Below, piece after piece: positions 2,021-35,043 of a stretch of 64,000 nt of DNA (position 1 is its first letter; each line of letters begins with the position of its first letter). Source of the stretch: Halorarum halophilum (GTDB taxonomy: Archaea; Halobacteriota; Halobacteria; Halobacteriales; Haloferacaceae). The stretch is from NCBI RefSeq assembly GCF_013401515.1, contig NZ_CP058529.1, positions 3,286,001 to 3,350,000 on the forward strand. Direction: 5' to 3'. The notes beneath the pieces are model-generated. The model was not told where the DNA came from and made no database searches. It saw only the letters and a program-made list of their open reading frames with translations. The translations under genes were made by a program, and so were the position numbers.

Positions 2021-4351
2021 TCAGGCGTCCTCGACGTGAGTCTCGGCGAAGTAGGCGCGCCCGTTGCGCGGCACGACCTTCGACTCGCTCACGTCGACCG
2101 TCTCCGTCGCGACGACGTCCGCGGCAGAGCGGCCGATGCGCAGTTCGTACGAGCCCTCGTGGACGACGAGGTTCATGTCGCGGTCGTGGTACGCGAGCAG
2201 GGAGGCGGGGAGCTCGAACGTCACGCGCTTCGATTCGCCGGCGTCGAGCGCCACGCGCTCGAAGCCCTTCAGCTCCTGAACCGGGCGGGCCTGGTCGGGC
2301 GACTCGGGGCGGACGTACAGCTGGACGACGTCGCGCCCGGCGCAGTCGCCGACGTTCGTGACCGTGACGCTCGCCGCTACCGTCCCGGCCGGGTCGACGC
2401 GGTCGGCCGCGAGTTCGAGGTCGTCGTAGTCGAACTCGGTGTAGCTCAGCCCGTGACCGAACGGGTACAGCGGCGCGCTCCCCGTGTACACGTGGTCGTT
2501 GGTCGCCGAGTTGGGTCGGCGGCTGTAGTGGACGGGGAGCTGCCCGACCGACCGGGGAACCGACACCGGGAGGTGGCCGCTCGGGTTGTAGTCGCCGAAC
2601 AGCACGTCGGCGATGGCCGTGCCGCCCTCCTCGCCGGGGAGCCACGCCTGGAGGACGGCCGGTACCTCCTCGGCGACCCACTCGATGGAGTGGGGCTTGC
2701 CGCTGACGACGACGACGACGAGCGGCGTACCCGTCCCGTGGAGCCGTACGAGGAGCTCCTGCTGGACGCCCGGCAGGCCGAGGTCGGTCACGTCCGACCC
2801 TTCGCCGCTGGTGGGGAGGCTCGGGTTGGTCGCGTCCGCCTCGTCGGCGTCCAAGAAGTCGACGGCGGAGCGGGCGCCGACGAACGCGAGCGCGACGTCG
2901 GCGTCGGCCGCGACGTCCGCGGCCGCGTCGAAGCCGCTCGTATCCGGACCGGTCGTCGTACACCCCTCCTCGTACGGGACGTCGACCCCGACTCCTGCAC
3001 GCACTCGGATGGCTTCGAGGGGCGTCGTCGCGTCGACCGACACCTCCTCCTCCGGGTAGTGTGCGGGATAGGCGTAGTCGCCCATCATCTCCTGGACGTC
3101 GTCCGCCTTGGGGCCGACCACGGCGAGGGTGTCCACGTCGTCGAGCGGGAGGAGGTCGCCCTCGTTCTTCAGCAGGACCTGCGACTCGCGCGCGGCGCGC
3201 TCGGTGAGCGCCGTCGCCTCGTCGGTTCCGAACGCGTCGGCCGCGGCGTCCGCGTCGACGGTCGGGTCCTCGAGGACGCCCTTCCGGAGCTTCATCCGGA
3301 GGACGCGCCGGACGCTCTCGTCGAGCGTCTCCTCGGCGAGTTCGCCGTTCTCGACCGCCTCGACGAGGTGCTCGCCGTAGCAGTCGGTGGCCGGGAGTTC
3401 GACGTCGATGCCGGCCTCGAGTGCCTGCACGCCGGCCTCGCGCTCGTCGGCCGCGACGCCGTGCTCACTCCGCAGAAACTCCACGCTGTAGTAGTCGGAG
3501 ACGACCGTCCCCTCGAACCCCAGCTCGCCGCGGAGCACGTCGGTCAGCAGCCACTCGGAACTCGCGCAGGGGATGCCGTCGATGTCGTGGTAGGCGTTCA
3601 TCACCGACTCCACGCCCGACCTCCGGATCGCGGCCTCGTACGGGTACAGGTGCGTTTCGCGGAGCTCCCGTTCGCCGAGATTGACCGAGGCGCGGTTCTT
3701 CCCGCCCTCGGAGACGCCGTGGGCGACGAAGTGCTTCAGCGTCGCCGAGATGCCCTCCTCGACCGAGTCGCCCTGGAGCCCTGAGACGTACGCGCAGGCC
3801 ATCGCCGCGACGAGGTACGGGTCCTCACCGAACGTCTCCTCGACGCGCCCCCACCGGAGATCGCGCGCGACGTCCAGCACGGGTGAGAGCGCGTGGACCG
3901 TCCCGATCGCCTCCATCTCGGACCTGATCTGCTCGGTAACCTCGGCCATCAGGTCGGGCTCCCACGTGCTCGCCATCCCGATCGACTGGGGGAACGTCGT
4001 CCCCTCGGGGCCCATGTAGCCGCTCAGGCACTCCTCGTGCGGGATCGCCGGGACACCCAGTCGCGTCTCGCCGAGGATCTCCTGTAACTCGTTCGTGATC
4101 CGGGCGGCATCGGTCGGGGAGAGACTCCCCTCCCCACCGATGCGGGTGAGGTGACCGATCCCCTCGGACAGGAGTTCCTCGGCCGCCTCGCGGTCGAGTT
4201 CGCCGTCGTCGAGTAGCTTCGCCGCGTTGACCGAGCCTAGCTGGGCGGCCTTCTCCCGTAGCGTCATTCGCGAGAGCAGGTCGTCGATGCGTCGCTCTGG
4301 CGGCGCGGCGTCGTCGGTGTACGTCGCGCCCTCCGGAACCTCTGCTGTCAC
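2021..4351 (-). CDS. Glycoside hydrolase family 3 beta-glucosidase/beta-xylosidase
   Basis: About 776 residues, typical for three-domain GH3 enzymes. It opens with the family start RIDDLLSRMTLREKAAQL, continues with the N-terminal barrel (KHFVAHG) and carries the catalytic nucleophile Asp (about residue 286) in GTVVSDYYS. A C-terminal fibronectin-III-like domain follows (near QELKGFERVALDAGE). No signal peptide is seen, so it should act in the cytoplasm on imported oligosaccharides, releasing glucose or xylose; the substrate cannot be told from sequence. The frame is open to an ATG at 4489, but that would sit 25 bp from the divergent GH42 gene. The GTG at 4351 is preferred because a TTAAGAT element lies about 28 bp upstream; GTG 4366 is an alternative. 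It flanks the uronate-catabolism locus. Confidence 0.9.
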   Translation of the reverse strand: MTAEVPEGATYTDDAAPPERRIDDLLSRMTLREKAAQLGSVNAAKLLDDGELDREAAEELLSEGIGHLTRIGGEGSLSPTDAARITNELQEILGETRLGVPAIPHEECLSGYMGPEGTTFPQSIGMASTWEPDLMAEVTEQIRSEMEAIGTVHALSPVLDVARDLRWGRVEETFGEDPYLVAAMACAYVSGLQGDSVEEGISATLKHFVAHGVSEGGKNRASVNLGERELRETHLYPYEAAIRRSGVESVMNAYHDIDGIPCASSEWLLTDVLRGELGFEGTVVSDYYSVEFLRSEHGVAADEREAGVQALEAGIDVELPATDCYGEHLVEAVENGELAEETLDESVRRVLRMKLRKGVLEDPTVDADAAADAFGTDEATALTERAARESQVLLKNEGDLLPLDDVDTLAVVGPKADDVQEMMGDYAYPAHYPEEEVSVDATTPLEAIRVRAGVGVDVPYEEGCTTTGPDTSGFDAAADVAADADVALAFVGARSAVDFLDADEADATNPSLPTSGEGSDVTDLGLPGVQQELLVRLHGTGTPLVVVVVSGKPHSIEWVAEEVPAVLQAWLPGEEGGTAIADVLFGDYNPSGHLPVSVPRSVGQLPVHYSRRPNSATNDHVYTGSAPLYPFGHGLSYTEFDYDDLELAADRVDPAGTVAASVTVTNVGDCAGRDVVQLYVRPESPDQARPVQELKGFERVALDAGESKRVTFELPASLLAYHDRDMNLVVHEGSYELRIGRSAADVVATETVDVSESKVVPRNGRAYFAETHVEDA

Positions 4352-4514
4352 AGAGGCCGGGTTCACGGCGCCGCATCTTAACGATTCTGACGGCGTCTGG
4401 TATCGCCCCGGACGGGCGACTGTCCCGACTTCGGCGGACACGGTGTCGCCCGGAACGGTCCTATCCGGGCGGCCGAGGGGAAGGTTCAACTAACCCGGCC
4501 AGGACTGGAAGCGC

Positions 4515-6500
4515 ATGTCGATCGGAGTCTGCTACTTCCCGGAACACTGGCCAGGCGAGCGGTGGGAGCGCGACGTCGAACAAATGGCCGAGGCGGGGTT
4601 CGAACACGTCCGGATGGGCGAGTTCGCCTGGGACCGGCTCGAGCCCGAGCGCGGGCGCTTCGAGTTCGGGTGGCTGGACGAGATCCTCGACCTGCTCGCG
4701 GAGCACGACCTGACGGCGGTGCTGTGCACGCCGACGGCGACGCCGCCGAAGTGGCTGGTCGACGAGCGCCCCGGGATCCTCCAGGAGACCGCGGACGGGA
4801 CGGTGAGGGGGTTCGGTGGACGTCGCCACTACTGCTTCAACTCGCCCGCGTATCGCGAGGAGACCGAGCGCGTCGTGTCGGAGCTGGCCGACCGGTACGC
4901 CGGCGACCCGCGGGTCGCCGGCTGGCAGATCGACAACGAGTTCGGCTGTCACGACACCGTCCGGTGCTACTGCGACGACTGCGCGGCCGCCTTCCGTGAC
5001 TGGCTCCGCGAGCGGCACGACGACGTCGACGCGCTGAACGAGGCCTGGGGCACCGCCTTCTGGAGCCAGTCGTACCCGTCGTTCGGGTCGGTCGATCCGC
5101 CCTGCGTGGCGACCGCCGACCACCACCCGTCGCGGCTGCTGGCGTACTACCGGTTCGCCAGCGACAGCGTCCTCGACTACAACCGGCTCCAGGTGGCGCT
5201 CCTGCGGGACGCGGACGACGACTGGTTCTTCACGCACAACTTCATGGGGAACTTCGGCGACCTCGACGCCCGCGCCGTCGCCGAGGACCTGGACTTCGCC
5301 TCGTGGGACACCTATCCGACGGGCGGGTTCGCCCGCGGCGGTGACGCGTCGCTCCGGACCGGCGCGTTCGACACTGTGGGGATGAACCACGACCTCTACC
5401 GGGGGATGAGTGACGAGCGCTTCTGGGTGACGGAGCTCCAGTCGGGCGAGAAGGACTACCCTGCCGACAGCCCGCAGCCGGCCGAGGGCGCGATGCGGCT
5501 GTGGGCCCACCAGGCGGTCGCCCACGGCGCGGGCGCGGCGCTGTACTTCCGCTGGCGGCGCTGCCGGAGCGGCCAGGAGCAGTACCTCGCCGGGTTGCGG
5601 AAACACCACGGCGGCCCCGACCGCGCGTACGGCGACGCGCGCGAGACCGCGGCCGACCTCGCGGACCTCGATCCCGGCCCGGTCGACGCCCCGGTCGCCC
5701 TCCTCCACGACTACGAGGACGCCTGGGCGCTCGACATCCAGCCCCGATCCTCCTCGTTCGACTACTGGGCGCACGCACGGACGTACTACAGCGCCCTCCG
5801 CCGGCGGGGACTCGACGTGGACGTGGTCGGGACCGACGCGGACCTCGACGGTTACGGCGCGGTCGTCGCCCCGACGCTGTGCCTCGCGGACGCGGCGCTC
5901 GCCGACCGCCTGCGCCGGTACGCGGAGCGCGGCGGCTCCCTGCTCGTGACGATGCGGTCGGGCGTCAAGGACGAGTACGACAAGCTCCGGAACGATCCGG
6001 CTCCCGGGCCGCTCGCGGGGACCGTGGGCGCGACGCTCGACCAGCGCGAGAGCTTCCCCCGCGACGAGGACGGGCTGGACCTGACGTACCGCGGCGAGTC
6101 GTTCGCGTACCGGACGTGGGCGGAGTGGCTCGACGTCGACGGCGCCGACGTCGTCGGCGAGTACGCCGCGGGCGTCGGCGAGGGCCGCGCCGCGATCACG
6201 CGGAACCGCGTCGGCGACGGCACGGTCCTGTACAGCGGCGTCTGGCCGGGGGCGGAACTGGCCGACGCGCTCGTCGCGGACGTGCTCGACGCGGGCGGTG
6301 TCGAGTGCGCGGACCGCCTCCCACGGGACGTTCGGTGTTCGACCCGAGGAGACGCGGTCTGGGTGCTCAACTTCGCGCTCGATCCGGTGACGGTCCGGGC
6401 GGACGGGGACGCGGAGTGGCTCGTCGGGGACGAGGAGGTCCCCCCCGCCGGCTGTTCGGTCGTTCGCGCCCCCCTCTCGGAACTGGCGTTCGAGCGGTAG
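4515..6500 (+). CDS. Glycoside hydrolase family 42 beta-galactosidase
   Basis: This 661-residue enzyme shows the GH42 start (GVCYFPEHWPGERWERD), acid/base Glu142 in QIDNEFG and nucleophile Glu307 in WVTELQSG, spaced as in characterised GH42 enzymes. Four cysteines (C107, C151, C153, C156) match the structural zinc site of the family. After the barrel come the trimerisation domain and a small beta domain. It hydrolyses terminal beta-galactosyl or related bonds (alpha-L-arabinopyranosides are also cleaved by some members), consistent with side chains of plant hemicellulose or pectin. No signal peptide is present, so the enzyme is intracellular. A TTCAACTAAC element lies about 25 bp upstream of the ATG. 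It is divergent from the GH3 gene. It resembles the Haloferax BgaH family. Confidence 0.93.
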   Translation: MSIGVCYFPEHWPGERWERDVEQMAEAGFEHVRMGEFAWDRLEPERGRFEFGWLDEILDLLAEHDLTAVLCTPTATPPKWLVDERPGILQETADGTVRGFGGRRHYCFNSPAYREETERVVSELADRYAGDPRVAGWQIDNEFGCHDTVRCYCDDCAAAFRDWLRERHDDVDALNEAWGTAFWSQSYPSFGSVDPPCVATADHHPSRLLAYYRFASDSVLDYNRLQVALLRDADDDWFFTHNFMGNFGDLDARAVAEDLDFASWDTYPTGGFARGGDASLRTGAFDTVGMNHDLYRGMSDERFWVTELQSGEKDYPADSPQPAEGAMRLWAHQAVAHGAGAALYFRWRRCRSGQEQYLAGLRKHHGGPDRAYGDARETAADLADLDPGPVDAPVALLHDYEDAWALDIQPRSSSFDYWAHARTYYSALRRRGLDVDVVGTDADLDGYGAVVAPTLCLADAALADRLRRYAERGGSLLVTMRSGVKDEYDKLRNDPAPGPLAGTVGATLDQRESFPRDEDGLDLTYRGESFAYRTWAEWLDVDGADVVGEYAAGVGEGRAAITRNRVGDGTVLYSGVWPGAELADALVADVLDAGGVECADRLPRDVRCSTRGDAVWVLNFALDPVTVRADGDAEWLVGDEEVPPAGCSVVRAPLSELAFER

Positions 6501-6553
6501 CCTACCGATATCGGGGTCACGGCCGACGCGCGAACGATCGGCGTAAACCGACG

Positions 6554-6581
6554 AAACCGGTCCGCGGCATCCGCGGATTTA
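6554..6581 (+). promoter_or_regulatory. uxaC promoter with candidate regulator half-site
   Basis: A GGATTTA TATA-like element ends at 6581, about 33 bp before the uxaC ATG. Just upstream is AAACCGGT (6554-6561), inside the 12-base string GAAACCGGTCCG that also occurs in the left arm of the palindrome on the iclR promoter at 20773-20784. A CCGCGG-CAT-CCGCGG pair (6562-6576) lies between it and the TATA box. The shared string suggests a common regulator, but one short match is weak evidence. Confidence 0.4.
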
Positions 6582-6611
6582 TGGCGGTCTCGGCTGTGAC
6601 CTCTACCAACG

Positions 6612-7979
6612 ATGGGCTTCCTCGACGAGGACTACCTGCTCGAAACCGACGCCGCACGCGACCTGTACGACGCCGTCGCCGACCTGCCGATCCGCGACCC
6701 GCACAGCCACGCCGACGTGGTCGAGATCGTGGAGGACGACGGCTGGGGCGACATCTGGGAGGTGGAGGGCGCCACCGACCACTACGTCTGGGCGATGATG
6801 CGAAAACGTGGCGTCCCCGAGGAGAAGATCACCGGCGACGCCTCCAACCGCGAGAAGTGGACCGCGCTGGCTGAGGTGTTCCCCGAGTTCGCAGGCAACC
6901 CGACCTACGAGTGGGTCCACCTCGACCTGAAGCGCCGGTTCGGCATCGAGAACCCCATCTCGGCCGCGACGGCCGACGAGATCTGGGAGGAGACCGCGGC
7001 GCAACTCGAAGACGACACGATGCGACCGCAGCGCCTCCTCGAGGAGATGGGCGTGGAGGTCGTCTGCACCACCGACGACCCGACCTCGTCCCTGGAGTAC
7101 CACGAGCGCGCCGCGACCGAGGTCGACGGCACCGACGTCCTCCCGACGTGGCGGGCCGACCGGGCCGTGCACATCGGCCACGGGGACTGGGACGACTTCG
7201 TCGACGAACTGACCGACGCGACCGGCATCGACACGGGCAGTCTCGACGGGTTCCTCGACGCGCTCGCGGCCACCCACGACCGCTTCGCCGACCACGGTTG
7301 CCGCGCGAGCGACCTGAGCGTGTACGAACCCGTCTCCCGACCCGTGAGCGAGACGCGGGCGCGGCGGATCTACGAGGCCGCTCGCCGGGGCGAGTCCCCG
7401 AGCGAGCGCGAGGTCGAGGATTTCGAGGCGTTCCTGCTGGAGTACATCGGCTCGCTGAACGTCGAGAAGGGGTGGGTCACCCAGCTCCACATCGGGCCGG
7501 TCCGCGACTATCGCGAGGACCTGTTCGAGCGGCTGAGCTCTGCCGCCGGGGGCACCGTCACGTCGGGCGACGTCGAGATCGCGGAGAACCTCCGCCACTT
7601 CCTCAACACGTTCGACGGCGAGGGGGAGATCGTCCTCTACTGCGTCGACCCGACGCACTACCCGACGCTGGCGACCATCGCCCGGGCGTTCCCCAACGTC
7701 TGCGTGGGGGCGGCGTGGTGGTTCAACGACAGCCCGTTCGGCATGGAACACCAATTGGAGTACGTCGGCACGGTCGACCTCCTTGCCAACCACGCGGGCA
7801 TGGTCAGCGACTCGCGGAAGCTCCTCTCGTTCGACTCGCGCTTCGAGATGTTCCGGCGCTCGCTCGCGAACGTCGTCGGTCGGCAGGTCGAGCGCGGCCG
7901 GATGCCGATGGACGTCGGACTGGACCTGGTCGAACACGTCGCCTACGATCGACCTGGCCGCCTCTACGGGTTCGCCTAG
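6612..7979 (+). CDS. uxaC: Uronate (glucuronate/galacturonate) isomerase
   Basis: This 455-residue protein has the UxaC family layout. A metal-binding His pair lies near the N-terminus (RDPHSHAD), and the late family motif AAWWFNDSPFGMEHQL is clear. UxaC interconverts D-glucuronate with D-fructuronate and D-galacturonate with D-tagaturonate in the cytoplasm; it is the first step after uronic acids are set free. It sits between GH42 and the divergent uxuA, and the locus also encodes GH67 and a CHEV-type GH4, which would make exactly these two sugars. The length is close to that of bacterial UxaC and no key residue appears missing. The start is the first ATG after the TATA box. Confidence 0.93.
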   Translation: MGFLDEDYLLETDAARDLYDAVADLPIRDPHSHADVVEIVEDDGWGDIWEVEGATDHYVWAMMRKRGVPEEKITGDASNREKWTALAEVFPEFAGNPTYEWVHLDLKRRFGIENPISAATADEIWEETAAQLEDDTMRPQRLLEEMGVEVVCTTDDPTSSLEYHERAATEVDGTDVLPTWRADRAVHIGHGDWDDFVDELTDATGIDTGSLDGFLDALAATHDRFADHGCRASDLSVYEPVSRPVSETRARRIYEAARRGESPSEREVEDFEAFLLEYIGSLNVEKGWVTQLHIGPVRDYREDLFERLSSAAGGTVTSGDVEIAENLRHFLNTFDGEGEIVLYCVDPTHYPTLATIARAFPNVCVGAAWWFNDSPFGMEHQLEYVGTVDLLANHAGMVSDSRKLLSFDSRFEMFRRSLANVVGRQVERGRMPMDVGLDLVEHVAYDRPGRLYGFA

Positions 7980-8028: not shown

Positions 8029-9138
8029 TCACGTCCGCTCCGACTGTTCGACCTGCTCCGCCAGCATCACCTGCTCCACCTGCTCGCCCTGCTCCGCCCG
8101 CATCGCCTTCAGCATCCCGTTCAGGTAGCCGACCGTGTACGCGCGGCCGCGGTGTTCCCAGTCGGAGTCGCCCTCCAGTTTCGGGGTGTGGTCCGGGATC
8201 ATCATCCCCTCGAAACCTACCTCGTCCAGGAGTTTCAGTACCCCGTACTCGTCGAAGTTTCCCTCGCCGAGGAACGTCTCCCTGAACGAGGGGATCGTCC
8301 CCTCGACGTCCCGGAAGTGCACGTAGAACAGCTCGTCGCGTCCGCCGAAGTGGCGGATCACCTCGTTCAGGTCCTCGCCCATCTCCGACCAGCAGCCCAG
8401 ACAGAACTCCAGCCCGTGGTTGTCGCTCGGGACGAGCTCCATCGCCCGCTTGAAGTTCTCGAAGTTCCGTGCGAGCTGCGGGACGCCGCCGAGCGTCTCC
8501 ATCGGCGGGTCGCTCGGGTGGAGACACAGTTTGATCCCGGCGTTCTCGGCGACCGGGAGCACCTCGCGCAGGAAGTACTCGTAGTTCTCCCACATCTCCT
8601 CCTCGGTGTACTCGCGCCCGTGCGTGAAGCTCGTGTCCGCCTCCTCGGCGTCGAACGCCGACACCCGCGCGCCGCCGCGGACGGTCTCGGTCCCGGTCCG
8701 CCAGACGCCCGCGGGCGCCCAGTGGTACCCGAAGATGGGGATGCCGGCTTCCCCCATGTTCCGGATCGTGTTCTTGAGCTTGGCCAGCTGTTCGTCGCGC
8801 CCGGGCCGGCCGAGCATCACCTTGTCGTAGAACGACGTCGGGAAGTTCTCGATGGCGTTCAACCGGAGGCCGTGGTCCTCGATCCGCTCGCGCAGCGCGA
8901 CCAGGTTCTCGACCGACCACTCGCCGTCGCCCTCCAGGGGCATCCGCTCGTCGTCGGGCATGTGCTCGTAGTCGGGGTCGTCGTACTGGTACATGTTAAG
9001 GAGGACGTCGTCGACCCCGAGCTGTTTGATGAACCGGAGCCGCTCCTCCGTCGGTTCCATGAACTGTCCGAGACCGACCCGCATAGGGAGATCGTCGGGT
9101 CGCTCCGCAGCCGCGTCTCCGCCGTCGACGGTAGCCAT
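8029..9138 (-). CDS. uxuA: D-mannonate dehydratase
   Basis: About 369 residues, a TIM-barrel enzyme that dehydrates D-mannonate to 2-keto-3-deoxygluconate. The four residues known to bind the catalytic metal in this family can be seen in context: His in CLHPSDPP, Cys in FCLGC, His in YVHFRDV and Asp in MIPDHTP. The N-terminal half has the usual motifs (GLGQF, LLNMYQYDD, AIENFP, IFGYHWAP). Two in-frame ATGs exist at 9147 and 9138; 9138 is chosen because an ATTAAAA element lies about 28 bp upstream. It is divergently transcribed from the GH4 gene across a 114-bp region. The C-terminus ends in a Glu/Gln-Val-Glu-Gln run without apparent function. A paralogue lies at 10794-11861. Confidence 0.93.
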   Translation of the reverse strand: MATVDGGDAAAERPDDLPMRVGLGQFMEPTEERLRFIKQLGVDDVLLNMYQYDDPDYEHMPDDERMPLEGDGEWSVENLVALRERIEDHGLRLNAIENFPTSFYDKVMLGRPGRDEQLAKLKNTIRNMGEAGIPIFGYHWAPAGVWRTGTETVRGGARVSAFDAEEADTSFTHGREYTEEEMWENYEYFLREVLPVAENAGIKLCLHPSDPPMETLGGVPQLARNFENFKRAMELVPSDNHGLEFCLGCWSEMGEDLNEVIRHFGGRDELFYVHFRDVEGTIPSFRETFLGEGNFDEYGVLKLLDEVGFEGMMIPDHTPKLEGDSDWEHRGRAYTVGYLNGMLKAMRAEQGEQVEQVMLAEQVEQSERT

Positions 9139-9252
9139 CGATTTCACTTTCTTCGTGTGCGGTTTTAATGGTATGGTGTATCGGCCATCCGCGACCGACC
9201 CGTCTTGCAGCTTCCCACACCTCTATGCTGGGTCCCGAACGTGTGCGATTCG

Positions 9253-14202: not shown

Positions 14203-14430
14203 ATGAGCTCACGTCGGGACCGGTTCTGGGACTTCCTCTGCCTGTTCTCCACGCAGGCGTACGTGTTCCTCGCGATCTCGGTCGCGCTGCTCTTCTTCAT
14301 GGGGTTCGCCTGGATCAACGGTCCGGGGCCGGAGACACGGGCGCTCATTCCGCTGAACGTCGCCGTGCTGTCGGTCAACGCGGTCGTGCTGTACGCGATC
14401 ATCCGCCATTGTCGGTCCCGGGACCTCTGA
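14203..14430 (+). CDS. Small two-helix membrane protein
   Basis: A 75-residue protein with two hydrophobic segments (about residues 17-41 and 52-67), a positive N-terminus (SSRRDRF) and a basic C-terminus (IIRHCRSRDL). I do not recognise the family. The ATG at 14203 is chosen over 14185 because TAACG elements at about 14167-14179 lie near 28 bp upstream. It stands alone between the divergent GH67 gene and the convergent ABC permease gene. Confidence 0.6.
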   Translation: MSSRRDRFWDFLCLFSTQAYVFLAISVALLFFMGFAWINGPGPETRALIPLNVAVLSVNAVVLYAIIRHCRSRDL

Positions 14431-15447: not shown

Positions 15448-16451
15448 CGTCCCTCACCCCCCGTCTCGATACGCGGATCGAGCCGTCCGTACGTGAGGTC
15501 AGCGACGAACACGCCGACGACGACGGCGATGGTGATGACGAGGAACGCCCCCATCATGACCGGGTAGTCCCGGCGCAGCGCCGAGTCGAGCATCAGGTAG
15601 CCGACCCCCCGGTAGCTGAAGATCTGCTCCAGGATGACCGACCCGCCGAACAGGAACCCGATCTGGATGAGCAGCCCCGTGTACAGCGGGAGGATGGCGT
15701 TCCTCGCGACGTACCGGTAGGAAATGCGGTGGTCCGACAGGCCGCGCAGGCGGGCCCCGCGGATGTAGTCGGACCCGAGCGTCTGGATGCTGTTGGCGCG
15801 CATGCTCAGCGCGATGCCCCCGAAGCCGGTGGCGACGAGCGAGACGACGGGGAGTGTCGCGTGGTAGAGTACGCTCCGGTACCACGCCAGCGACCCGGGG
15901 TTGAGCCCCGCCGCGAACTTGCCGCCCTGGGGGAAGATCCCCCACTGGAAGACGAAGAAGAACACGAGGATGAACGCGAACACGTAGAACGGCACCGAGA
16001 CGACGAACGTGCTGAGCGCGGAGGCGGACAGGTCGAACCGACTCCCCTCCGTGTAGGCCATCATCGCGCCGAGCAGGATGCCGATGACGTACTGGAACGT
16101 GATGGCGACGCTGAGCAGGAACACCGTCCAGGGGAGGACGTCCGCCAGGAGCACCGACACCTCGACGCCCTGGATGTACGAGTAGCCGAGGTCGCCCTGG
16201 AACGTCTTGATCACGTAGTCGAAGTATTGCACGTGGAGCGGTTCGTCGGGTTTGACGTTCAGGTAGAGCCGCACCTGCCGGTTGATCTCCGCCTCGCTCA
16301 TCGTCGCGCCGTAGCGCTGGTAGAGCTCCGCCCGCATCCGGTCGATGGGGCTGCCCGGCATCAGCCGGATGAGGAAGAACGTGAGCGTGATCGTCGTGTA
16401 GATGACGACGAACGCCATCCCGATGCGGCGCGCCAGCCAGCGTCCGTTCAC
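15444..16451 (-). CDS. dppB: ABC importer permease, DppB/OppB type
   Basis: A 335-residue integral membrane protein with the OppB/DppB pattern: an N-terminal helix (ITLTFFLIRLMPGSP), a long external segment with the substrate-independent motif YFDYVIKTFQGDLGYS, then five helices and the coupling motif SDYIRGARLRGLSD. It pairs with the DppC-type permease immediately downstream (4-bp overlap) and follows the fused ATPase gene, also with a 4-bp overlap, forming one operon read 18592 to 14494. Confidence 0.93.
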   Translation of the reverse strand: MNGRWLARRIGMAFVVIYTTITLTFFLIRLMPGSPIDRMRAELYQRYGATMSEAEINRQVRLYLNVKPDEPLHVQYFDYVIKTFQGDLGYSYIQGVEVSVLLADVLPWTVFLLSVAITFQYVIGILLGAMMAYTEGSRFDLSASALSTFVVSVPFYVFAFILVFFFVFQWGIFPQGGKFAAGLNPGSLAWYRSVLYHATLPVVSLVATGFGGIALSMRANSIQTLGSDYIRGARLRGLSDHRISYRYVARNAILPLYTGLLIQIGFLFGGSVILEQIFSYRGVGYLMLDSALRRDYPVMMGAFLVITIAVVVGVFVADLTYGRLDPRIETGGEGR

Positions 16452-18592
16452 GGGGCGTCACCCCCGACGCCGACGACTTCGTTGTCGAGCGGCTCGCTGT
16501 CCCAGTATGGGTGGTCATCGTCGCGGTCGCGGAAGCAGGCGGCGGTGTGACCCTCCTGGAGTTCGGGGTTCGTCTCGGTACAGGCCTCCCGGGCCTTCGG
16601 GCACCGCGGGTGGAACCGACAGCCCGACGGCGGGTCCACCGGGTCGGGGATGTCGATGTCGCTGATCGGCGCCTCGTCGTGCGTCTCGTCGCCGTCCGTG
16701 ATGTCGGTCGTCGCCCAGTGGAGCGCCTGCGTGTACGGGTGCTTCGGGTTCCGGACGATCTCCTCGGCGGGGCCGATCTCGACGATCTCGCCGAGGTACA
16801 TCACGGCGATGCGCCCCCCGGCGCGCCCGGTCAGGTAGCGGGCGTTGGTGAGGTTGTGCGAGATGAACAGGTACGACGTGTCGAACAGGTCCTGCAGCGT
16901 CAACATGAGGTCCATCATGTCGACCCGCATCGACACGTCGAGCGCCGAGACCGCCTCGTCGGCGAGGATGAGGTCGGGGTTCATCAGCAGCGCGCGGATG
17001 AGCGCGACGCGCTGCTGTTCGCCGCCCGAGAGCTGGTGTGGGAACCGCTCCGCGTAGTCCTCCGGCGGCGACATCCCCGCGGATTCCAGCATGGCGAGCA
17101 CGCGCGCCCACCGGTCCTCCTTGTCGAGGTCGGGTTTCCAGCGCTTCATCGGCACCTGGAGGATCGCCGAGACCTTCCGGTTGGGGTTGAGCGAGCTCCC
17201 CGGGTCCTGGTGGATGATCTGCAGGGCCCGCCTGATGTCGTCGTACGATCGTTCGCCGTCCCCCGCCTTCCCCTTCTTGGCCTCCCAGACGTCCTGGCCG
17301 CGGTAGTTGACGCTCCCACCGGTGGGCTCCTGGAGCCCGACGGCCGTCTTCCCGAGGGTCGTCTTCCCGCAGCCGGACTCGCCGACCACGGCGACCACGT
17401 CGTTCTCGTAGATGTCGAGGTCGACGCCGTCGACCGCGCGGACGACGTTGGGGTCGCTGAACAGGCCGAAGAACCCCCCGCCGTCGTCCTCGAAGTGGAC
17501 CTCGACGTCGTCGAGGGTCACCACCGGCTCGTCCGACTGGCGCCCCTCGATCCGCTCGTACTCGGACGAGTCGTCCTCGAGGATCAATGGCAGTTCCCCG
17601 TCTACCTCATCGTGGTGGAAGCAGGCGACCTCCTGACCGGGGCCGAGCGGCTCCAGGGGAGGTTCCTCGCGGCGACACTCCTCGGTCGCGAGCGGGCAGC
17701 GGGGGTGGTACGAACAGCCCGGCGGCACGTCGACCGGGTCCGGGCTCGAGCCCTCGATCGCCTTCAGTTCGTCGAGCGGCGTCGTGAGGTTCGGCACGGT
17801 GTTGAGGAGCGATCTGGTGTACGGGTGCTGGGAGTTCGAGAGGTCGTCGGCGTGGAACACCTCCACGACGTCGAACGCGTACATCACCGCGATGCGGTCA
17901 CAGAGGTCCTGCACCAGCGGGAGGTCGTGGGTGATGAAGACGATGGTCAGGTCGTACTTCTCCTGGAGGTCCTCGAGCAGCGTGAGGATCGAGCGTTGCA
18001 TCAGCAGGTCCAGCGCCGCCGTCGGCTCGTCCATCACGAGCACCTCCGGATCGAGGATGAGACTGAGCGCGATGAGCGCCCGCTGTTTCATCCCCCCGCT
18101 GAGTTCGTGCGGATACGTGTCGAGCACGCGCTCGGGTTCGAGGTGGAGGTCGGTGAGCAGTTCGCGTGCGCGCTCCATGCCCGCGTCGACGTCCTCGTCG
18201 TGGGCCTTGAGCGTCTCGAGGAAGTGCCCCCGGATCCGCATCGTCGGGTTGAAGAAGCTCATCGCGCCCTGGAACACCATCGCGATGTCCCCCCATCGCA
18301 GTCGCTTCAACTCCTCACCCTCGAGGTCGAGGACGTTCATCGAACGGCCGCTCCCGTCGTGGTAGGTGATGTCGCCGTCGACCTTCCCTGGGTTGACGAC
18401 CGCGTCGAGCATCGCCGACGCGAGCATCGACTTCCCGCTCCCACTCTCGCCGACGACGCCGAGTATCTCCCCCCGGCGAACGTCCAGCGAGACGTCGTCG
18501 AGCACCCTGGACGTCCCGCGGTCCATGTCGAAGGTGACGTCGACGTCCCGAACTTCGAGGACGTTCTCGTGCGATACCGCCTGTTGTGACAT
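16448..18592 (-). CDS. dppDF: Fused double ATPase of a peptide/oligosaccharide ABC importer (DppD-DppF fusion)
   Basis: The 714-residue protein contains two complete ABC nucleotide-binding domains. Domain 1 (about 1-330): Walker A GESGSGKS, signature LSGGMKQR, Walker B VMDEPTAALD. Domain 2 (about 360-690): Walker A GESGCGKTT, signature LSGGEQQR, Walker B ILADEAVSALD. Each ends with the Oligo_HPY tail and its cysteine motif (GCSYHPRCP and GCRFHPRCP), which in some relatives holds an iron-sulfur cluster. It energises the two permeases downstream, whose genes overlap by 4 bp. DppD and DppF are usually separate; the fusion fixes a one-to-one heterodimer. A GATATTAC element (about 28 bp upstream of the ATG) gives the operon its own promoter, separate from the binding-protein gene 125 bp upstream. 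Confidence 0.93.
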   Translation of the reverse strand: MSQQAVSHENVLEVRDVDVTFDMDRGTSRVLDDVSLDVRRGEILGVVGESGSGKSMLASAMLDAVVNPGKVDGDITYHDGSGRSMNVLDLEGEELKRLRWGDIAMVFQGAMSFFNPTMRIRGHFLETLKAHDEDVDAGMERARELLTDLHLEPERVLDTYPHELSGGMKQRALIALSLILDPEVLVMDEPTAALDLLMQRSILTLLEDLQEKYDLTIVFITHDLPLVQDLCDRIAVMYAFDVVEVFHADDLSNSQHPYTRSLLNTVPNLTTPLDELKAIEGSSPDPVDVPPGCSYHPRCPLATEECRREEPPLEPLGPGQEVACFHHDEVDGELPLILEDDSSEYERIEGRQSDEPVVTLDDVEVHFEDDGGGFFGLFSDPNVVRAVDGVDLDIYENDVVAVVGESGCGKTTLGKTAVGLQEPTGGSVNYRGQDVWEAKKGKAGDGERSYDDIRRALQIIHQDPGSSLNPNRKVSAILQVPMKRWKPDLDKEDRWARVLAMLESAGMSPPEDYAERFPHQLSGGEQQRVALIRALLMNPDLILADEAVSALDVSMRVDMMDLMLTLQDLFDTSYLFISHNLTNARYLTGRAGGRIAVMYLGEIVEIGPAEEIVRNPKHPYTQALHWATTDITDGDETHDEAPISDIDIPDPVDPPSGCRFHPRCPKAREACTETNPELQEGHTAACFRDRDDDHPYWDSEPLDNEVVGVGGDAP

Positions 18593-18716
18593 GTACAGTG
18601 TGGTTCGAGTACGAACCGTAATATCCCTATCGATTAATTATGGTCGATACGACGACGTGACGGAATCCGGACGGTCCGGGCCGGTTTCGAGATCGACGTC
18701 TCGGATTATCGACCGG

Positions 18717-20603
18717 TCACTTCGGGCTCATCGCGGGGATGGACATGAACGTCCGGTTGGTGTAGTTGATGCCCCATAGCGGGTCGTCCTTGGCCGGCCA
18801 GTTCCACTCGTCGGTCCAGTACATCATCCCCCAGTTCTCGACGTTGGTGGGGATCGAGGGCAGCGCGTAGTTGTACACCCACGCGAGCAGTTCGATCTGC
18901 GTGGTGTACTCCTCGCCGGTGAGCTTCGCGAGGCCGTCGACCTCCTCGCGGACGTTGATCTCCTGCAGGTCGCCCTCCCAGTTACCGACCGGCATCGGGA
19001 CCTCGATCGTCTCGGGGAAGTAGACCATGCTGTCGCCGTCGAACATCGTTCCCAGGTACGACACCGGCGACTGCGCGTTGGTGTGCGTGCGTAGGGAGTT
19101 CCAGGTGTCGTCCGAACGACCCCAGAGGATCGAGCCGAACTGCTCGTTGACCGAGAAGTTCGTGCTGAAGCCGAACTGCTCGAGCTGGTTCATCGTCGCC
19201 TGACCCGTCGTCGGCCAGTGGTGGTAGTTCGGCGAGATGTGGTCGATGACGAACTCCTCGCCCTGGTAGTACCAGGTGCCGTCCTCCTTGGAGAAGCCGA
19301 CCTCCTCGAGCAACTGTGTGGCCTTCTCGTGGTCGGTCCCGTACGTCCGGAGCGTGTCGTGGATGTTCGGCAGGGCCTCCTCGGTCTTGAAGAAGACCCC
19401 GTCGGCCCGCTCGAGCGCGGTCGTGCGGGTCGGGTGGGCACGCGAGATCTCCTCGTTGTTGAGGACGTACGCGATCGCCTGCCGGAACTTGGGCTCGGCG
19501 TACACGTCGGGGACGCCGTCGGCGTCCGTGTTCCAGTTGAACGCGAGCCCCTGCACGGCGGTCCCCGCGCGGATCACGATCTCCATGTTCTCCTCCTTCT
19601 GGATCCGCTCGATGTGCTCGGGCTGGGGGAGCGGCCCGGCCTCGATGTTGCCCGAGAGGGCCGCCGAGATGGGCTGCGAGCGCCCGCCCGCGGCGTCGAA
19701 GTTCTCGATGCGCCCCGAGAACTCCGGCGGGGAGTGGAATCCGTCGTGGGGCTCGAGCACCGCGACCGTCTCGGTCGAGTCGCTGATCTTCCACGGCCCG
19801 CACGTGACCGTCTCGTCGATCGGCCACTGGTGGTCGTCGGTGAGCTCCTGGTCGATCTTCGTGATCGCGTCGGTCGTGGTCGCGTCCTGCAGACGCTCGA
19901 GGTAGTCGACGAACACGGTCTCCTCGCCGTCGATCTCGCGCGGCGGGGAGAGCTGGTAATCCTGGGTGAACATCTGTTTCGCCGCGTAGTCGGTGTTCAG
20001 CTCCCCCAGCTCCATGACGACGGTCTTGTCGCCCTCGGCGGTGATCGCGTCGACGTTCGACCACATGACCGAGTCGATCTTCCCGAGTTCCTTCTGGATC
20101 TTGAGCCGCAGCGTCAGGTCGTCGGCCGTTACCTCGTCCCCGGACGTCCACTGCCAGTCGTCGTACAGGCCCATCGTGATGGTCCCGTTCCCCTGGTCGA
20201 TGTCGAGCGACTCCAGGCCCAGCGGGACGAACTGGTCGTACGTGTTGCTGGTCTCCTTGTTGAACTCGGCGGACGTCGACCATCGCGCGAGTTGCGGGTG
20301 GATGGACCACGCGAGCGCGTGGAGGTTCGCCCCCCACGGGTTCTGGATCTGCGACTGGGACTCCATCGCGCCCGGCAGGAACGTGTGGAACTCCCTGTTC
20401 CCGCCGTTTCCGCCGTTCCCCCCATTTCCGCCGCCGTTCCCGCCGTTGCCGTTGACGGGCGTGACGTCCTCGTCGTCGCCGCCGGAACAGCCGGCGAGGA
20501 AGACGGCGGTCGCCGCACCGGCCCCCTGCATCATCCGTCTGCGGCTGAGGCGGTTACTGGCGTGCCCGTTCCGGTCCGACGGCGTGTAGTCGTCGTTGAC
20601 CAT
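18717..20603 (-). CDS. ABC importer solute-binding lipoprotein, SBP_bac_5 family
   Basis: About 628 residues. The N-terminus has a Tat motif (SRRRMMQGAG), a lipobox (FLAGC) and a Gly/Asn-rich linker, so the protein is exported folded and anchored outside the cell. The mature part belongs to the family 5 extracellular binding proteins that serve peptide, nickel and, in hyperthermophiles and haloarchaea, plant oligosaccharide importers. Motifs such as VTADDLTLRLKIQ, FRQAIAYVLNNEEI and ATQLLEEVGFSKEDGTW are typical. The ATG at 20603 follows an AGAAGG sequence that may act as a ribosome-binding site; the open frame continues to 20732 but loses family features. It lies between its regulator (iclR, divergent) and the ATPase/permease operon. 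Confidence 0.92.
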   Translation of the reverse strand: MVNDDYTPSDRNGHASNRLSRRRMMQGAGAATAVFLAGCSGGDDEDVTPVNGNGGNGGGNGGNGGNGGNREFHTFLPGAMESQSQIQNPWGANLHALAWSIHPQLARWSTSAEFNKETSNTYDQFVPLGLESLDIDQGNGTITMGLYDDWQWTSGDEVTADDLTLRLKIQKELGKIDSVMWSNVDAITAEGDKTVVMELGELNTDYAAKQMFTQDYQLSPPREIDGEETVFVDYLERLQDATTTDAITKIDQELTDDHQWPIDETVTCGPWKISDSTETVAVLEPHDGFHSPPEFSGRIENFDAAGGRSQPISAALSGNIEAGPLPQPEHIERIQKEENMEIVIRAGTAVQGLAFNWNTDADGVPDVYAEPKFRQAIAYVLNNEEISRAHPTRTTALERADGVFFKTEEALPNIHDTLRTYGTDHEKATQLLEEVGFSKEDGTWYYQGEEFVIDHISPNYHHWPTTGQATMNQLEQFGFSTNFSVNEQFGSILWGRSDDTWNSLRTHTNAQSPVSYLGTMFDGDSMVYFPETIEVPMPVGNWEGDLQEINVREEVDGLAKLTGEEYTTQIELLAWVYNYALPSIPTNVENWGMMYWTDEWNWPAKDDPLWGINYTNRTFMSIPAMSPK

Positions 20604-20637
20604 GTGTGAACCTTCTACTGGGCATGTGCACACACAC

Positions 20638-20650
20638 CATATATAATTTA
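20638..20650 (-). promoter_or_regulatory. Strong TATA box of the solute-binding protein gene
   Basis: The minus strand reads TAAATTATATATGG, the most AT-rich TATA match in the locus. It lies about 40 bp upstream of the ATG at 20603, predicting a short leader of roughly 12 nt containing AAGG. Binding-protein genes are usually the most highly expressed of an importer, in keeping with this. Confidence 0.6.
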
Positions 20651-20773
20651 TGTTGGTGCTCTTTGCTGTCGAACCCGTACGGGGGCATTCTGGCTCCCAT
20701 CGGGCGGCGCGGGCCTCCACGGAGCGGGTCACTCATCACCGCTTTTCGCTCCCGTTCTGTCCAGGATGGTTGG

Positions 20774-20804
20774 AAACCGGTCCGATTACCCAACCGGTTT
20801 ATAC
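20774..20804 (+). promoter_or_regulatory. Perfect inverted repeat on the iclR promoter (candidate operator) with TATA box
   Basis: AAACCGGT (20774-20781) and ACCGGTTT (20793-20800) form a perfect inverted repeat with an 11-bp spacer, so the arm centres are about two helical turns apart, as expected for a dimeric winged-helix regulator. The right arm runs directly into the TATA element TTTATAC (20798-20804), 26 bp before the iclR ATG. A protein bound here would block the archaeal basal factors, so negative autoregulation by IclR is the simplest reading. Confidence 0.6.
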
Positions 20805-20825
20805 GATGGTTCCCCTCGAATACCC

Positions 20826-21590
20826 ATGGAAGACGGGTCCGAGGGACAGACGCTCCAGGGGGTTCGGAAGGCGTTCAAGATAGTTAGACACATCAAGGAG
20901 ACGGGACCGACGACGGTGACGGGGCTCGCGGACGCGCTCGACCTCCCCAAGAGCACGGCCCACATCCACCTGAAGACGATGGCCGAAGCGGGGTACCTGT
21001 ACAAGGACGACGGGACGTATCGGCTTAGCCTCCACTTCCTCAGCCACGGCACGGTCGTCCGTCGCGAGTTCGAGATCTACCAGGTCGCCAAGGGGGAGAT
21101 CAACAGCCTCGCCGAGGAGACGGGGGAGGTCGCGAGCATCGGGGTCGAGGAGGGCGGCAAGCGCGTGCTACTCTACAAGTCGGAGGGCGGCGACGCGGTC
21201 TACGACAACTCCCACACCGGTGAGTTCACCGAGATGCACTGGACGTCACTGGGGAAGGCGCTGCTCGCGCACATGCCCCGGGAGCGGGTCGAGGCGATCG
21301 TCGACGAGCACGGGCTTCCCCGTGCGACGGAACACACGCTCACCGAACCGGAGGCGCTCTACGACGAGCTCGAACGCATCCGTGAGCAGGGATACGCGCT
21401 CGAGGACGAGGAGCACTGGGAGAACATCCGCGCCGTCTCCGTTCCGGTGCTCTCCGAGCAGGGCATCATCGGGGCGATCTCCCTGTCGGGGCCCAAAGCC
21501 AGGTTCTCGGACTCGCTCATCGAGGAGCGCATCCTCGACCCCCTGTACGACAAGGCGAACGTGATCGAACTCCGCCTCAAACACTACTGA
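20826..21590 (+). CDS. IclR-family transcriptional regulator of the uronate locus
   Basis: A 254-residue protein with an N-terminal winged helix (about 12-75; TGLADALDLPKSTAHIHLKTM) and a C-terminal IclR effector-binding domain (about 90-250; TSLGKALLAHMPRE, VPVLSEQGIIGAISLSGP). IclR proteins commonly control sugar-acid catabolism genes such as KdgR. Its position, divergent from the solute-binding protein and between the importer and the oxidoreductase, makes it the probable local regulator, with a uronate or 2-keto-3-deoxygluconate as a plausible ligand (inference). The ATG at 20826 is 26 bp after the TATA box. The start at 20766 would include the operator in the coding region and is rejected. 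Confidence 0.92.
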   Translation: MEDGSEGQTLQGVRKAFKIVRHIKETGPTTVTGLADALDLPKSTAHIHLKTMAEAGYLYKDDGTYRLSLHFLSHGTVVRREFEIYQVAKGEINSLAEETGEVASIGVEEGGKRVLLYKSEGGDAVYDNSHTGEFTEMHWTSLGKALLAHMPRERVEAIVDEHGLPRATEHTLTEPEALYDELERIREQGYALEDEEHWENIRAVSVPVLSEQGIIGAISLSGPKARFSDSLIEERILDPLYDKANVIELRLKHY

Positions 21591-21919
21591 CGGTACGTCG
21601 GGCTGCCCTGTTCACCGGGCGACGATGGCATTACAAGCGTACGGCTGTGAGAGTCACGACGCTGAACGGACCGTTCCAGCGACGAGACTTGCCATCCACG
21701 TCATCTGTCCAAGATAGCTGGACACTTCCATCGCCACGACGTCCGTCCTGTCCCTCAGCCGGCATCAATGGACACTCCGCACCACCGATGGTTACTAGCG
21801 GACGGGGGTCATCACCGTCGAGGAGAGAGCACATCGCTCGCCGACGAGAGACGGATTCTCGGGCACGCTCCCGGTCGACCCGGAGAATTTAAGTCTCGCG
21901 CGTATGGGCGTCTCTACAT
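21591..21919. other. Intergenic region with promoter of the UspA gene
   Basis: No gene is seen in these 329 bp. A perfect inverted repeat TGTCCA-N7-TGGACA lies at 21706-21724 and may help terminate the iclR transcript or bind a protein. Near the right end, GAATTTAAG (about 21885-21893) is a TATA-like element about 30 bp before the UspA start. Confidence 0.5.
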
Positions 21920-22375
21920 ATGCAACGAGGCCTAGTGGTAGTCGACAAGACGGACGCGCACAGGGGGCTGATCCGGGAGGCTGCCGAGCACGCAGTCGGC
22001 GCCGACGCCGAACTGGTCCTGTTCACGACGATGACCAGGGAGGAGTTCGAGTCGAACGCGGAGACGCTGGAGACGATCGGCTCGGTCGAGAACGTCAGCT
22101 ACGACAGCGACACCGCGCTCGACGCGGCGGCGAACGATGTCCGCGAGTTCGCCGCGGACCTGCTTCCCGCCGGCGTCGACGTCGACGTGGTCGCGAGGGC
22201 GACCGACGACGACGAACGCGCGGACGCCGTGCTCGACCTGGCGTCCGAGCGTGACTGCGACCACGTCTTCGTCCTCGGCCGTCGTCGGTCGCCGACGGGC
22301 AAGGCGCTGTTCGGCGACATCGCCCAGCGGATCGCCCTGAACTTCGACGGCTACGTCACGCTGGCGACGAGCTGA
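21920..22375 (+). CDS. UspA-like protein
   Basis: A 151-residue single-domain universal stress protein (alpha/beta, HUP-type fold). The N-terminal strand MQRGLVVVDKTDAHRGLI and the late segment DHVFVLGRRRSPTGKALFGDIAQRI are recognisable; the nucleotide-binding glycine motif is only partly kept (G-R-R-R-S instead of G-x-x-G), so ATP binding is uncertain. Function cannot be assigned; it may simply be a neighbour of the uronate genes. Possibly a leaderless transcript from the TATA box near 21889. Confidence 0.8.
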   Translation: MQRGLVVVDKTDAHRGLIREAAEHAVGADAELVLFTTMTREEFESNAETLETIGSVENVSYDSDTALDAAANDVREFAADLLPAGVDVDVVARATDDDERADAVLDLASERDCDHVFVLGRRRSPTGKALFGDIAQRIALNFDGYVTLATS

Positions 22376-22445
22376 ACCGGCGGTCGATCCCGATCATCCA
22401 TCGCGTTTTCAGGTAAAGATAAGGCCTCTCGGACGGACCCACGCG

Positions 22446-23222
22446 GTGTCCATGGCCAGTGACTCCGAACCAGCCGTGAGTGTCGAGGACCGATCCGCCG
22501 TCGTCATCGGGGGGACGACCGGAATCGGTCGCGCGATCGCCCTCGCGTTCGCCGACGAGGGTGCCGACGTCGTCGCGACCAGTCGCACCCGGGAGGCGGT
22601 CGAGGACGTCGCGACGGAGCTGCGAGACCGTGGCGCGACGACGGCCGAGGTCACCTGTGACGTCCGCGACCGCGAGTCGATCGAACGGCTCCGGGACGTC
22701 GCCGAGGAGACGCTCGGATCGGTCGACGTGCTCGTCAACTCCGCGGGAACGGTCGCACAGAGCCCCATCACCGAGATGTCCGAGGAGGAGTGGGCCCGGG
22801 ACATCGACGTGTGTCTCACCGGCGTGTTCCGGGCGTGCCAGATCTTCGGCCGGACGATGACCGAGGGGAGCATCGTCAACGTCTCCTCGATGTCGGCGGG
22901 CCAGGCCCGCGAGGCCAGGGCGGCCTACTGCGCCGCGAAGAGCGGCGTCGACGGGCTCACCCGTGCCGCCGCCGCCGACCTCGCCCCGGACGTCCGCGTC
23001 AACGCCGTCGCCCCCGGCTTCGTCAAGACGCCGATGGCCGGCCCGAAACTCGACGACGGGTCGTCGTTCCGCGAGACCGTCGACGAGCGAACGCCGATGG
23101 AGCGCGTCGCGACCCCGGAGGAGATCGCCGGGACGGTCATCTACCTCGCGAGCGACGCGGCCTCGTTCACCACTGCGCAGGTGGTGACGGTGGACGGCGG
23201 CTACGACGTCAGTTCGCTGTAG
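22446..23222 (+). CDS. Short-chain dehydrogenase/reductase, candidate fructuronate reductase
   Basis: A 258-residue classical SDR: nucleotide-binding motif GGTTGIG (about 22-28), NSAG, catalytic Ser in NVSSMS, catalytic YCAAK (about 161-165) and the C-terminal VTVDGGYDVS. It reduces or oxidises a hydroxyl/keto group with NAD(P). The locus encodes the steps before (UxaC) and after (UxuA) fructuronate reduction but no UxuB homologue, so this SDR is the best local candidate for D-fructuronate to D-mannonate; many other SDR activities are possible. The GTG at 22446 lies about 28 bp after an AAAGATAAG element; an ATG at 22452 is the alternative. Confidence 0.88.
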   Translation: MSMASDSEPAVSVEDRSAVVIGGTTGIGRAIALAFADEGADVVATSRTREAVEDVATELRDRGATTAEVTCDVRDRESIERLRDVAEETLGSVDVLVNSAGTVAQSPITEMSEEEWARDIDVCLTGVFRACQIFGRTMTEGSIVNVSSMSAGQAREARAAYCAAKSGVDGLTRAAAADLAPDVRVNAVAPGFVKTPMAGPKLDDGSSFRETVDERTPMERVATPEEIAGTVIYLASDAASFTTAQVVTVDGGYDVSSL

Positions 23223-35040: not shown

Positions 35041-35043
35041 TCG

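Follow-up and report, generated by a model that had tools for sequence, protein, structure and literature searches.

A probable aldouronate import and digestion block in the haloarchaeon Halorarum halophilum, with a candidate replacement for the classical fructuronate reductase

An aldouronate utilization cluster is known from Paenibacillus sp. JDR-2 (PMC4765114), and an aldotetraouronic acid cluster, which includes kdgKA-uxaC-uxuAB, is known from Geobacillus stearothermophilus (PMC4194401), both as described in the passages cited. In Halorhabdus utahensis, a GH67 gene next to genes for a glucuronate isomerase and a mannonate dehydratase (Huta_0869-0871) was reported in 2011 in the passage on these genes (PMC3102087), so that a claim of first discovery of an archaeal GH67-UxaC-UxuA group was dropped here. 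For Natronoglomus, the cited passage lists GH67 and proposes the import of mannan oligomers (PMC10963439). The locus described here lies in the 4.28 Mb genome of Halorarum halophilum (G000 in our numbering; 99.85% complete), between positions 2021 and 23222 of a 64 kb piece that we call the window, and it combines GH67, UxaC and UxuA genes with GH4 and a Dpp-type ABC importer. We propose, with a probability of about 70%, that this block imports glucuronate-bearing xylan fragments (aldouronates) whole and processes them inside the cell.

From position 2021, the genes run in the order GH3 (-), GH42 (+), UxaC (+), UxuA1 (-), GH4 (+), UxuA2 (+) and GH67 (-), followed by two Dpp-type permeases (-), an open reading frame (ORF) of fused ATPases (-), an SBP_bac_5 lipoprotein (-), an IclR-family regulator (+), a Usp gene (+) and a short-chain dehydrogenase/reductase (SDR; +). 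The original prediction had named GH3, GH42, UxaC, two UxuA, GH4 with its CHEV motif, GH67, a Dpp importer, IclR and SDR in this range, and Pfam finds all of them. The proteins of the window are acidic and third codon positions are rich in G+C, which is a haloarchaeal composition. As read from the sequences, the twin-arginine translocation (Tat)-type lipoprotein would capture aldouronic acids and the DppB-DppC-DppDF importer would move them into the cell, where GH67 would remove (4-O-methyl-)glucuronate and GH3 would cut the leftover xylo-oligosaccharide, while GH4 may add the removal of terminal alpha-galacturonate. UxaC would convert glucuronate to fructuronate, the SDR may reduce fructuronate to mannonate, replacing the classical UxuB, and UxuA1 (or the upstream UxuA3) would dehydrate mannonate to 2-keto-3-deoxygluconate (KDG). 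The KDG would then feed into the Entner-Doudoroff route of archaea.

The GH67 protein (11901-14165, minus strand; likely start 13979) contains the N-terminal, middle and C-terminal Pfam domains of its family and is closest to the intracellular AguA of Geobacillus, with 600 bits. Its residues E371, D443 and E471 align to E285, D364 and E392 of that enzyme, which we take to be the catalytic residues, and the protein is thus predicted to be an alpha-glucuronidase that releases (4-O-methyl-)glucuronate from xylo-oligosaccharides. The uronate isomerase UxaC (6612-7979, plus strand; Pfam 469 bits) scores over its curated NCBIfam cut-off (PRK02925, 498.5 against 387). Two further genes belong to the mannonate-dehydratase family, i.e., UxuA1 (8029-9147, minus strand; Pfam 185.7 bits), which is of the haloarchaeal type linked to GH67 and UxaC, and UxuA2 (10794-11861, plus strand; Pfam 146.8 bits), a diverged paralogue. 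Both carry the Pfam UxuA domain, and in an alignment their His/Cys/His/Asp positions match those of the Streptococcus suis mannonate dehydratase, presumably its ligand residues.

A third copy, UxuA3, lies about 10 kb before position 2021 in the adjoining 20 kb upstream of the window on the same contig (L002:12345-13310), and a genome-wide search found three UxuA-family genes, all of them inside the block when it is extended in this way. With UxuA3 and a Tat-type GH2 gene upstream, the compact 21-kb locus of the original prediction, whose genes do cluster as claimed, probably extends about another 10 kb in that direction. In a tree built for the compared loci, 20 UxuA proteins (two rows that repeated the same genes were dropped) fall into two deep groups, one of which joins UxuA1 with the copy of 11 other genomes, to whose linked UxuA it is 66-83% identical, and the other UxuA3 with the copy of six. 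UxuA2 forms a long branch beside the UxuA1 group, a placement flagged as unsure since long branches may join; it is 47-54% identical to the UxuA1 type, and the UxuA genes at the compared loci include no close equivalent of it. Both groups are present in Halorarum halophilum and, within the stretches read, in none of the other 17 genomes of the tree.

The comparison across haloarchaea comprised 99 genomes (that of Halorarum halophilum and 98 relatives) and a contig scan that gave 16 named haloarchaeal GH67 loci, for a total of 22 genomes with GH67. Among the 99 genomes, GH67 occurs in six and UxaC in seven, and five have both; the uronic-acid genes thus co-occur more than expected by chance (Fisher p = 1.7e-6, or 2e-5 without the own genome, both uncorrected for kinship). 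GH67 was not found in the two listed congeners among these 99 genomes. The compared loci were chosen by GH67, and the constancy of GH67 in them therefore proves nothing. Neighbourhood counts use the 21 genomes with about 20 kb or more read (G044, with 4 kb only, was left out) and protein families, for which 469 called proteins were clustered with a threshold of 38% identity; this clustering missed some copies detected by tblastn, e.g., the UxaC of G020.

By profile search, and with contigs matched by length, 17 of the 21 genomes have an intact UxaC no more than 25 kb from GH67 on the same contig; the exceptions are G099 and G109, which have none, G111, which has fragments only, and G114, in which a fragment adjoins GH67 and the full copy is on a different contig. 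Halobacteriales archaeon YIM A00010 has its UxaC remnant next to GH67 (L018:13190-13483 and G114:C2:937820-938092), with an in-frame TGA in the profile match, and its intact UxaC elsewhere, on another contig. Near GH67 we counted the UxuA family in 18 of the 21 genomes, the IclR family in 16 and Dpp-type permeases and ATPases in 14 each. Genes of the D-xylose dehydrogenase (Gfo6) group accompany GH67 in 14, those of the 2,5-dioxovalerate dehydrogenase group in 10 and those of the FAH-type group in eight; GH3 is found in 11, GH4 in 10 (own included) and GH11 in eight. Two GH10 groups, one signal-less by eye and one with mostly Tat-type N-termini by eye, occur in 11 genomes each. One Gfo6 and one dioxovalerate-dehydrogenase representative were profiled, and each passes its curated cut-off. 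Because GH10, GH11, Gfo6 and dioxovalerate dehydrogenase accompany GH67, the block of the relatives reads as a xylan programme, with exported GH10 and GH11, an importer, intracellular GH10, GH67, GH3 and both uronate and oxidative xylose branches. The idea of a uronic-acid block built from GH67, GH4 and an importer is borne out, in that the arrangement recurs across haloarchaea.

The classical reductases of fructuronate and tagaturonate (UxuB and UxaB) belong to the mannitol-dehydrogenase family. The Mannitol_dh_C domain was found in none of the 22 GH67 genomes (E <= 0.001), whereas the control search was positive in seven of 14 well-known genomes. In the fetched neighbourhoods of the 17 genomes with an intact linked UxaC, a candidate reductase of one of three kinds lies near UxaC or UxuA in 16, and G100 has none of the three. 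The kind found in the window, the SDR at 22446-23222 (plus strand; Pfam adh_short_C2), occurs in seven (G000, G020, G042, G101, G105, G106 and G110), a second SDR type in four (G023, G035, G108 and G113) and a luciferase-like monooxygenase (LLM)-class protein in five (G102, G103, G104, G107 and G112). In G114, outside the 17, UxuA and the UxaC fragment have an SDR of the window type next to them.

On this basis, we consider it somewhat better than an even chance that the window SDR is the fructuronate (D-mannonate) reductase in place of UxuB. The assignment comes from context, because the protein scores 168 bits against the D-mannonate oxidoreductase model PRK08277, whose cut-off is 281, and because the gene lies 14 kb from UxaC in the window. 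The same two points would suit an SDR with another role, such as sugar or polyol oxidation, with fructuronate being reduced by an unlinked enzyme, and so would the spread of its scores over many SDR models and the LLM genes found elsewhere in the SDR-bearing genomes G020, G105 and G106. We regard this as a serious but less probable alternative, since orthologues of the SDR repeatedly lie close to UxuA, UxaC or IclR in relatives, and since Mannitol_dh_C is absent from all of the GH67 genomes.

The LLM genes near UxaC and UxuA (L011:4316-5386, L016:4288-5367, L043:1178-2257, L008:18511-19590 and L042:2083-3162) belong to five genomes without either SDR type there. UxaC and UxuA flank the gene in L011 and L016, and in three of the four Halosimplex loci it is flanked by IclR and UxaC. 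The solved structures nearest to the protein are F420-dependent enzymes, e.g., methylene-tetrahydromethanopterin reductase and alcohol dehydrogenase, suggesting an F420-class oxidoreductase with putative use of F420. In G020 an LLM gene lies 1.6 kb from a UxaA pair, which ties this family to uronates once more. A genome-wide mutual exclusion of the three reductase kinds was considered and rejected, as it holds near UxaC in the fetched loci only and LLM orthologues also occur elsewhere in G020, G105, G106 and G111. The LLM genome G107 has a relative of the SDR (52%) about 18 kb from UxaC, and in the four Halosimplex loci a Gfo6-like gene (46-50%) adjoins UxaC and could be the reductase instead. 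The wider proposal, that haloarchaea fill the fructuronate step with the window SDR, the second SDR type and the F420-class LLM protein instead of UxuB, the last of these being the first F420-dependent hexuronate reductase, is accordingly a tentative one that we think is rather unlikely to hold in full. We found no report of UxuB replacement by SDR or LLM enzymes in haloarchaea in the open-licence literature.

Besides the score and position of the SDR, several observations weigh against the proposal that the block imports and digests aldouronates. The usual product of GH67 is 4-O-methylglucuronate. GH10 is found genome-wide in 17 and GH11 in 11 of the 22 GH67 genomes, and Halorarum halophilum has neither (other xylanase families were not searched), as is the case for five of the 22 (G000, G042, G099, G109 and G113). 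A tblastn search of the window and of the 20 kb upstream detected none of the xylose-pathway genes of the relatives. The two UxuA genes of the original prediction stand by Pfam family and by aligned residues, but both score under the curated cut-offs for mannonate dehydratase, with 149 (UxuA1) and 124 bits (UxuA2) against 191 for PRK03906, and 93 and 75 against 199.55 for TIGR00695; UxuA3 passes the former (230) but fails the latter (164). The best NCBIfam model for GH3 (2021-4489, minus strand; Pfam GH3 N, C and Fn3-like domains; true start probably near 4351-4366 by comparison with relatives) is beta-xylosidase/alpha-L-arabinosidase, and the score of 698 bits falls short of the cut-off of 1050, so that we call the protein a likely beta-xylosidase type. 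Pattern searches of the window, L002 and L009 found no operator that joins the operons of the locus, and peptide and nickel binders are among the closest folds of the binding protein, as described below. The lack of GH10 and GH11 suggests that Halorarum halophilum probably scavenges xylan fragments released by other organisms.

Alternatively, the substrates of the block could be mixed acidic heteropolysaccharides of plants (arabinogalactan, gums, rhamnogalacturonan) instead of xylan, with GH2 and GH42 removing galactose, GH4 removing galacturonate and GH67 having a side activity. A genome that lacks GH10 and GH11 and contains two GH28 genes would fit this, as would the presence of GH42 and a Tat-type GH2 in or beside the block. 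GH42, of the beta-galactosidase family, lies at 4515-6500 on the plus strand (Pfam 455.6 and 190.9 bits). The GH2 gene, LacZ-like with a LamG domain (Pfam GH2, LacZ_4, Bgal_small_N and Laminin_G_3), has its N-terminal piece at 1-93 of the window on the minus strand and continues upstream to L002:15354; its Tat-type N-terminus, read across the join of the window and L002 with the start counted by hand, is RRTFLQATGLGALAAG. The likely alpha-galacturonidase nature of GH4 would fit as well. However, the GH67 of relatives sits with GH10, GH11 and xylose-dehydrogenase-type genes, and the distance from the block to the GH28 genes is about 200 kb or more, so that, with polysaccharide lyases outside the search, we consider a heteropolysaccharide role unlikely.

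GH4 itself (9205-10719, plus strand; likely start 9253) has LplD (3fef) as its best sequence match in the structural database, with 315 bits against 111 bits for the next GH4, and its CHEV motif is at residue 203. Of the 11 GH4 proteins called at the compared loci, own included, 10 have the motif and the other (L005) is a fragment of 182 residues. Thompson et al. (2013) reportedly described Bacillus subtilis LplD as a GH4 alpha-galacturonidase, in a paper whose title names the CHEV motif, and the protein of the window fits an alpha-galacturonidase of the LplD type. Glucuronoxylan has a galacturonate residue at its reducing end, and this could possibly explain an alpha-galacturonidase in a xylan block.

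The original prediction had also included oligogalacturonides among the substrates and an isomerase pathway for both glucuronate and galacturonate. UxaC passes its cut-off; the galacturonate branch is incomplete in the block, where searches for Mannitol_dh_C and the UxaA family found neither UxaB nor UxaA. Two UxaA-family genes lie at 1.38 Mb of the genome, together with an Ldh_2 protein, lactonase-type and enolase-type proteins, a group 22 nickel-pincer isomerase and, by eye, a sugar importer, and GH28 is encoded at two places, 3.05 and 3.09 Mb, near what by eye are Dpp-type importer genes. Because the UxaA pair and the GH28 genes are outside the block, any use of oligogalacturonides probably depends on these loci, and for the block itself the case is weak despite GH4. 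We note that nickel-pincer-cofactor isomerases of group 22 (500 and 493 bits against a cut-off of 400) occur both near the UxaA pair (L053, G000:C1:1375001-1395000, at 5121-6596, minus strand) and near GH28 (L065, G000:C1:3040001-3055000, at 1059-2504, minus strand), and in haloarchaea the group may be linked to galacturonate.

The original prediction that the glycosidases have no signal peptide agrees with our result for GH3, GH42, GH4 and GH67, none of which shows a twin arginine with a hydrophobic stretch or a lipobox in a simple hydrophobicity and motif check, which is not a trained predictor. Four proteins of the window served as controls; in all four, twin arginines stand close to a hydrophobic stretch, and the lipobox pattern matches three of them; the hydrophobicity value alone fails to separate the groups (GH42 1.29, SDR 1.45, binding protein 1.28). 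A doubtful upstream extension of GH67 has RR pairs without a hydrophobic stretch. The binding protein of the importer, a family 5 solute-binding lipoprotein (18717-20732, minus strand; Pfam SBP_bac_5; likely start 20603), carries RR and an LAGC lipobox.

The remaining parts of the importer are a DppC-type permease (14494-15447, minus strand) and a DppB-type permease (15444-16451, minus strand), both Pfam BPD_transp_1, and a single 714-residue ORF of fused DppD and DppF ATPases (16448-18592, minus strand) with two ABC_tran and two oligo_HPY stretches, which scores 517 bits against PRK11308 (cut-off 408). At some related loci (e.g., L011 and L016), DppD and DppF are two separate ORFs. A search for relatives of the binding protein, limited to scoring the 7989 candidates that had most words in common with it, found 15, eight of them at 65-94% identity, and a sequence search of the PDB gave one weak match. 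In a structure model built from 16 sequences (mean predicted local distance difference test score, pLDDT, 67.6), the closest folds tie between the peptide-binding AppA, chitin-oligosaccharide binders, the Thermotoga mannobiose binder TM1223 and nickel binders. The model thus indicates only that oligosaccharides can be carried by proteins of this fold class, and the import of uronic oligosaccharides is plausible. That the importer must carry them, as originally predicted, is too strong, because of the tied fold ranking and because the genome has other importers (e.g., the one with a Peripla_BP_6 protein at 33745).

The least probable reading, that an ordinary peptide or small-molecule importer merely adjoins the block and uronate monomers enter by another carrier, could draw on the Dpp/Opp family of the ATPase and binding protein, on the fold ranking, on the lower likeness of importer genes at other GH67 loci (same-kind permeases and ATPases 40-65%, binding proteins 22-28%) and on Halosimplex aquaticum, whose 72% relative of the binding protein was not found in the 39 kb read around its GH67, yet it is disfavoured by the orthologous importer, 67-80% identical, that adjoins GH67 in four of the 21 genomes (G000, G105, G106 and G113), by the proven oligosaccharide binders in the fold class (TM1223 and the chitin-oligosaccharide binder) and by the lack of export signals on the glycosidases.

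With regard to regulation, the IclR-family protein (20766-21590, plus strand; Pfam IclR_C and HTH_IclR) scores below the cut-offs of its best NCBIfam models, including KdgR (108 against 275). The pattern TGTCCA-N7-TGGACA flanks iclR (20758 and 21706), and it was rejected as a shared operator of the locus: the window has three matches where 1.35 were expected, three are also reached in 17 of 100 shuffles, and L009 and L002 have none. A second candidate operator, the palindrome TTACAnnnnTAnnnnTGTAA, has one copy in the window by pattern search, with one mismatch, at 21631-21650, and four of 100 shuffles reach one match. It is real at related loci, where it occurs at 25 distinct sites (26 were listed, two being one site), one of them inside a called ORF and one (L052) not judged. 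In several loci it stands just 3' of iclR where this gene converges on its neighbour, a placement that a promoter operator does not explain. Because it has 452 copies in the 22 genomes (about 106 Mb; the pattern read backwards gives one) and a single imperfect copy in the window, it was rejected as a tie between the operons.

Several other genes lie in or around the block. GH67 and the permease are separated by a small ORF on the other strand (14185-14430, plus strand; 75-81 residues, with two hydrophobic stretches by eye), and a universal-stress-protein family gene (21920-22375, plus strand; Pfam Usp) lies between IclR and SDR. A pyrroloquinoline quinone (PQQ)-type beta-propeller gene (275-1459; Pfam) separates GH2 from GH3. 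The upstream 20 kb also holds an NAD-dependent epimerase-type protein and a TIM-barrel isomerase-type protein, besides the GH2 with its LamG domain. A second importer cluster at 33745-42092 is of the branched-chain amino-acid type by eye, its Peripla_BP_6 binding protein at 33745 having been profiled, and is followed by genes for a DAO-type oxidoreductase and an ornithine-cyclodeaminase-type protein.

If our reading of the block is right, oligosaccharide import with intracellular removal of uronates would not be solely bacterial, and haloarchaea would use another importer family than the Gram-positive clusters together with a replaced reductase. An archaeon without GH10 and GH11 would live on the xylan fragments of its neighbours, and two SDR types and an F420-class enzyme, which the profiles used leave generic, would gain a testable function.

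Compared with the clusters of Paenibacillus sp. JDR-2 and Geobacillus as described in the passages cited (PMC4765114, PMC4194401), the block shares a predicted intracellular GH67, an ABC importer that would carry the fragments and a likely beta-xylosidase. As in those clusters, a signal-less GH67 stands beside an ABC importer and a uronate-isomerase gene, whereas an intracellular and a secreted GH10 are missing, the genome having no GH10. The importer here is of the Dpp type (family 5) with fused ATPases rather than of CUT1, an SDR is the probable stand-in for UxuB and a GH3 the likely one for the GH43 of JDR-2, a GH4 of the alpha-galacturonidase type is included, and the host is an archaeon. 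The xtp locus of Thermotoga maritima, in the passage cited (PMC3750489), resembles the block in its cytoplasmic alpha-glucuronidase, its putative importer of xylan oligosaccharides and an IclR-family regulator tied to uxaC, and it differs in its secreted endoxylanase, its control by XylR and its separate UxaR/UxaE system for galacturonate; the PF08125 family is present there by the control search and was not found here. With Bacillus subtilis LplD (PDB 3fef), our GH4 shares the CHEV motif and the best sequence match among solved GH4 structures, whereas it is archaeal and linked to GH67, its activity being a prediction from sequence. Halorhabdus utahensis shows the same archaeal linkage of GH67, UxaC and UxuA, and the passage on Huta_0869-0871 does not name an importer, a GH4 or a reductase (PMC3102087). 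The import-and-digest strategy itself is thus known in bacteria and has been glimpsed in a relative, whereas the new part is a likely swap of the reductase.

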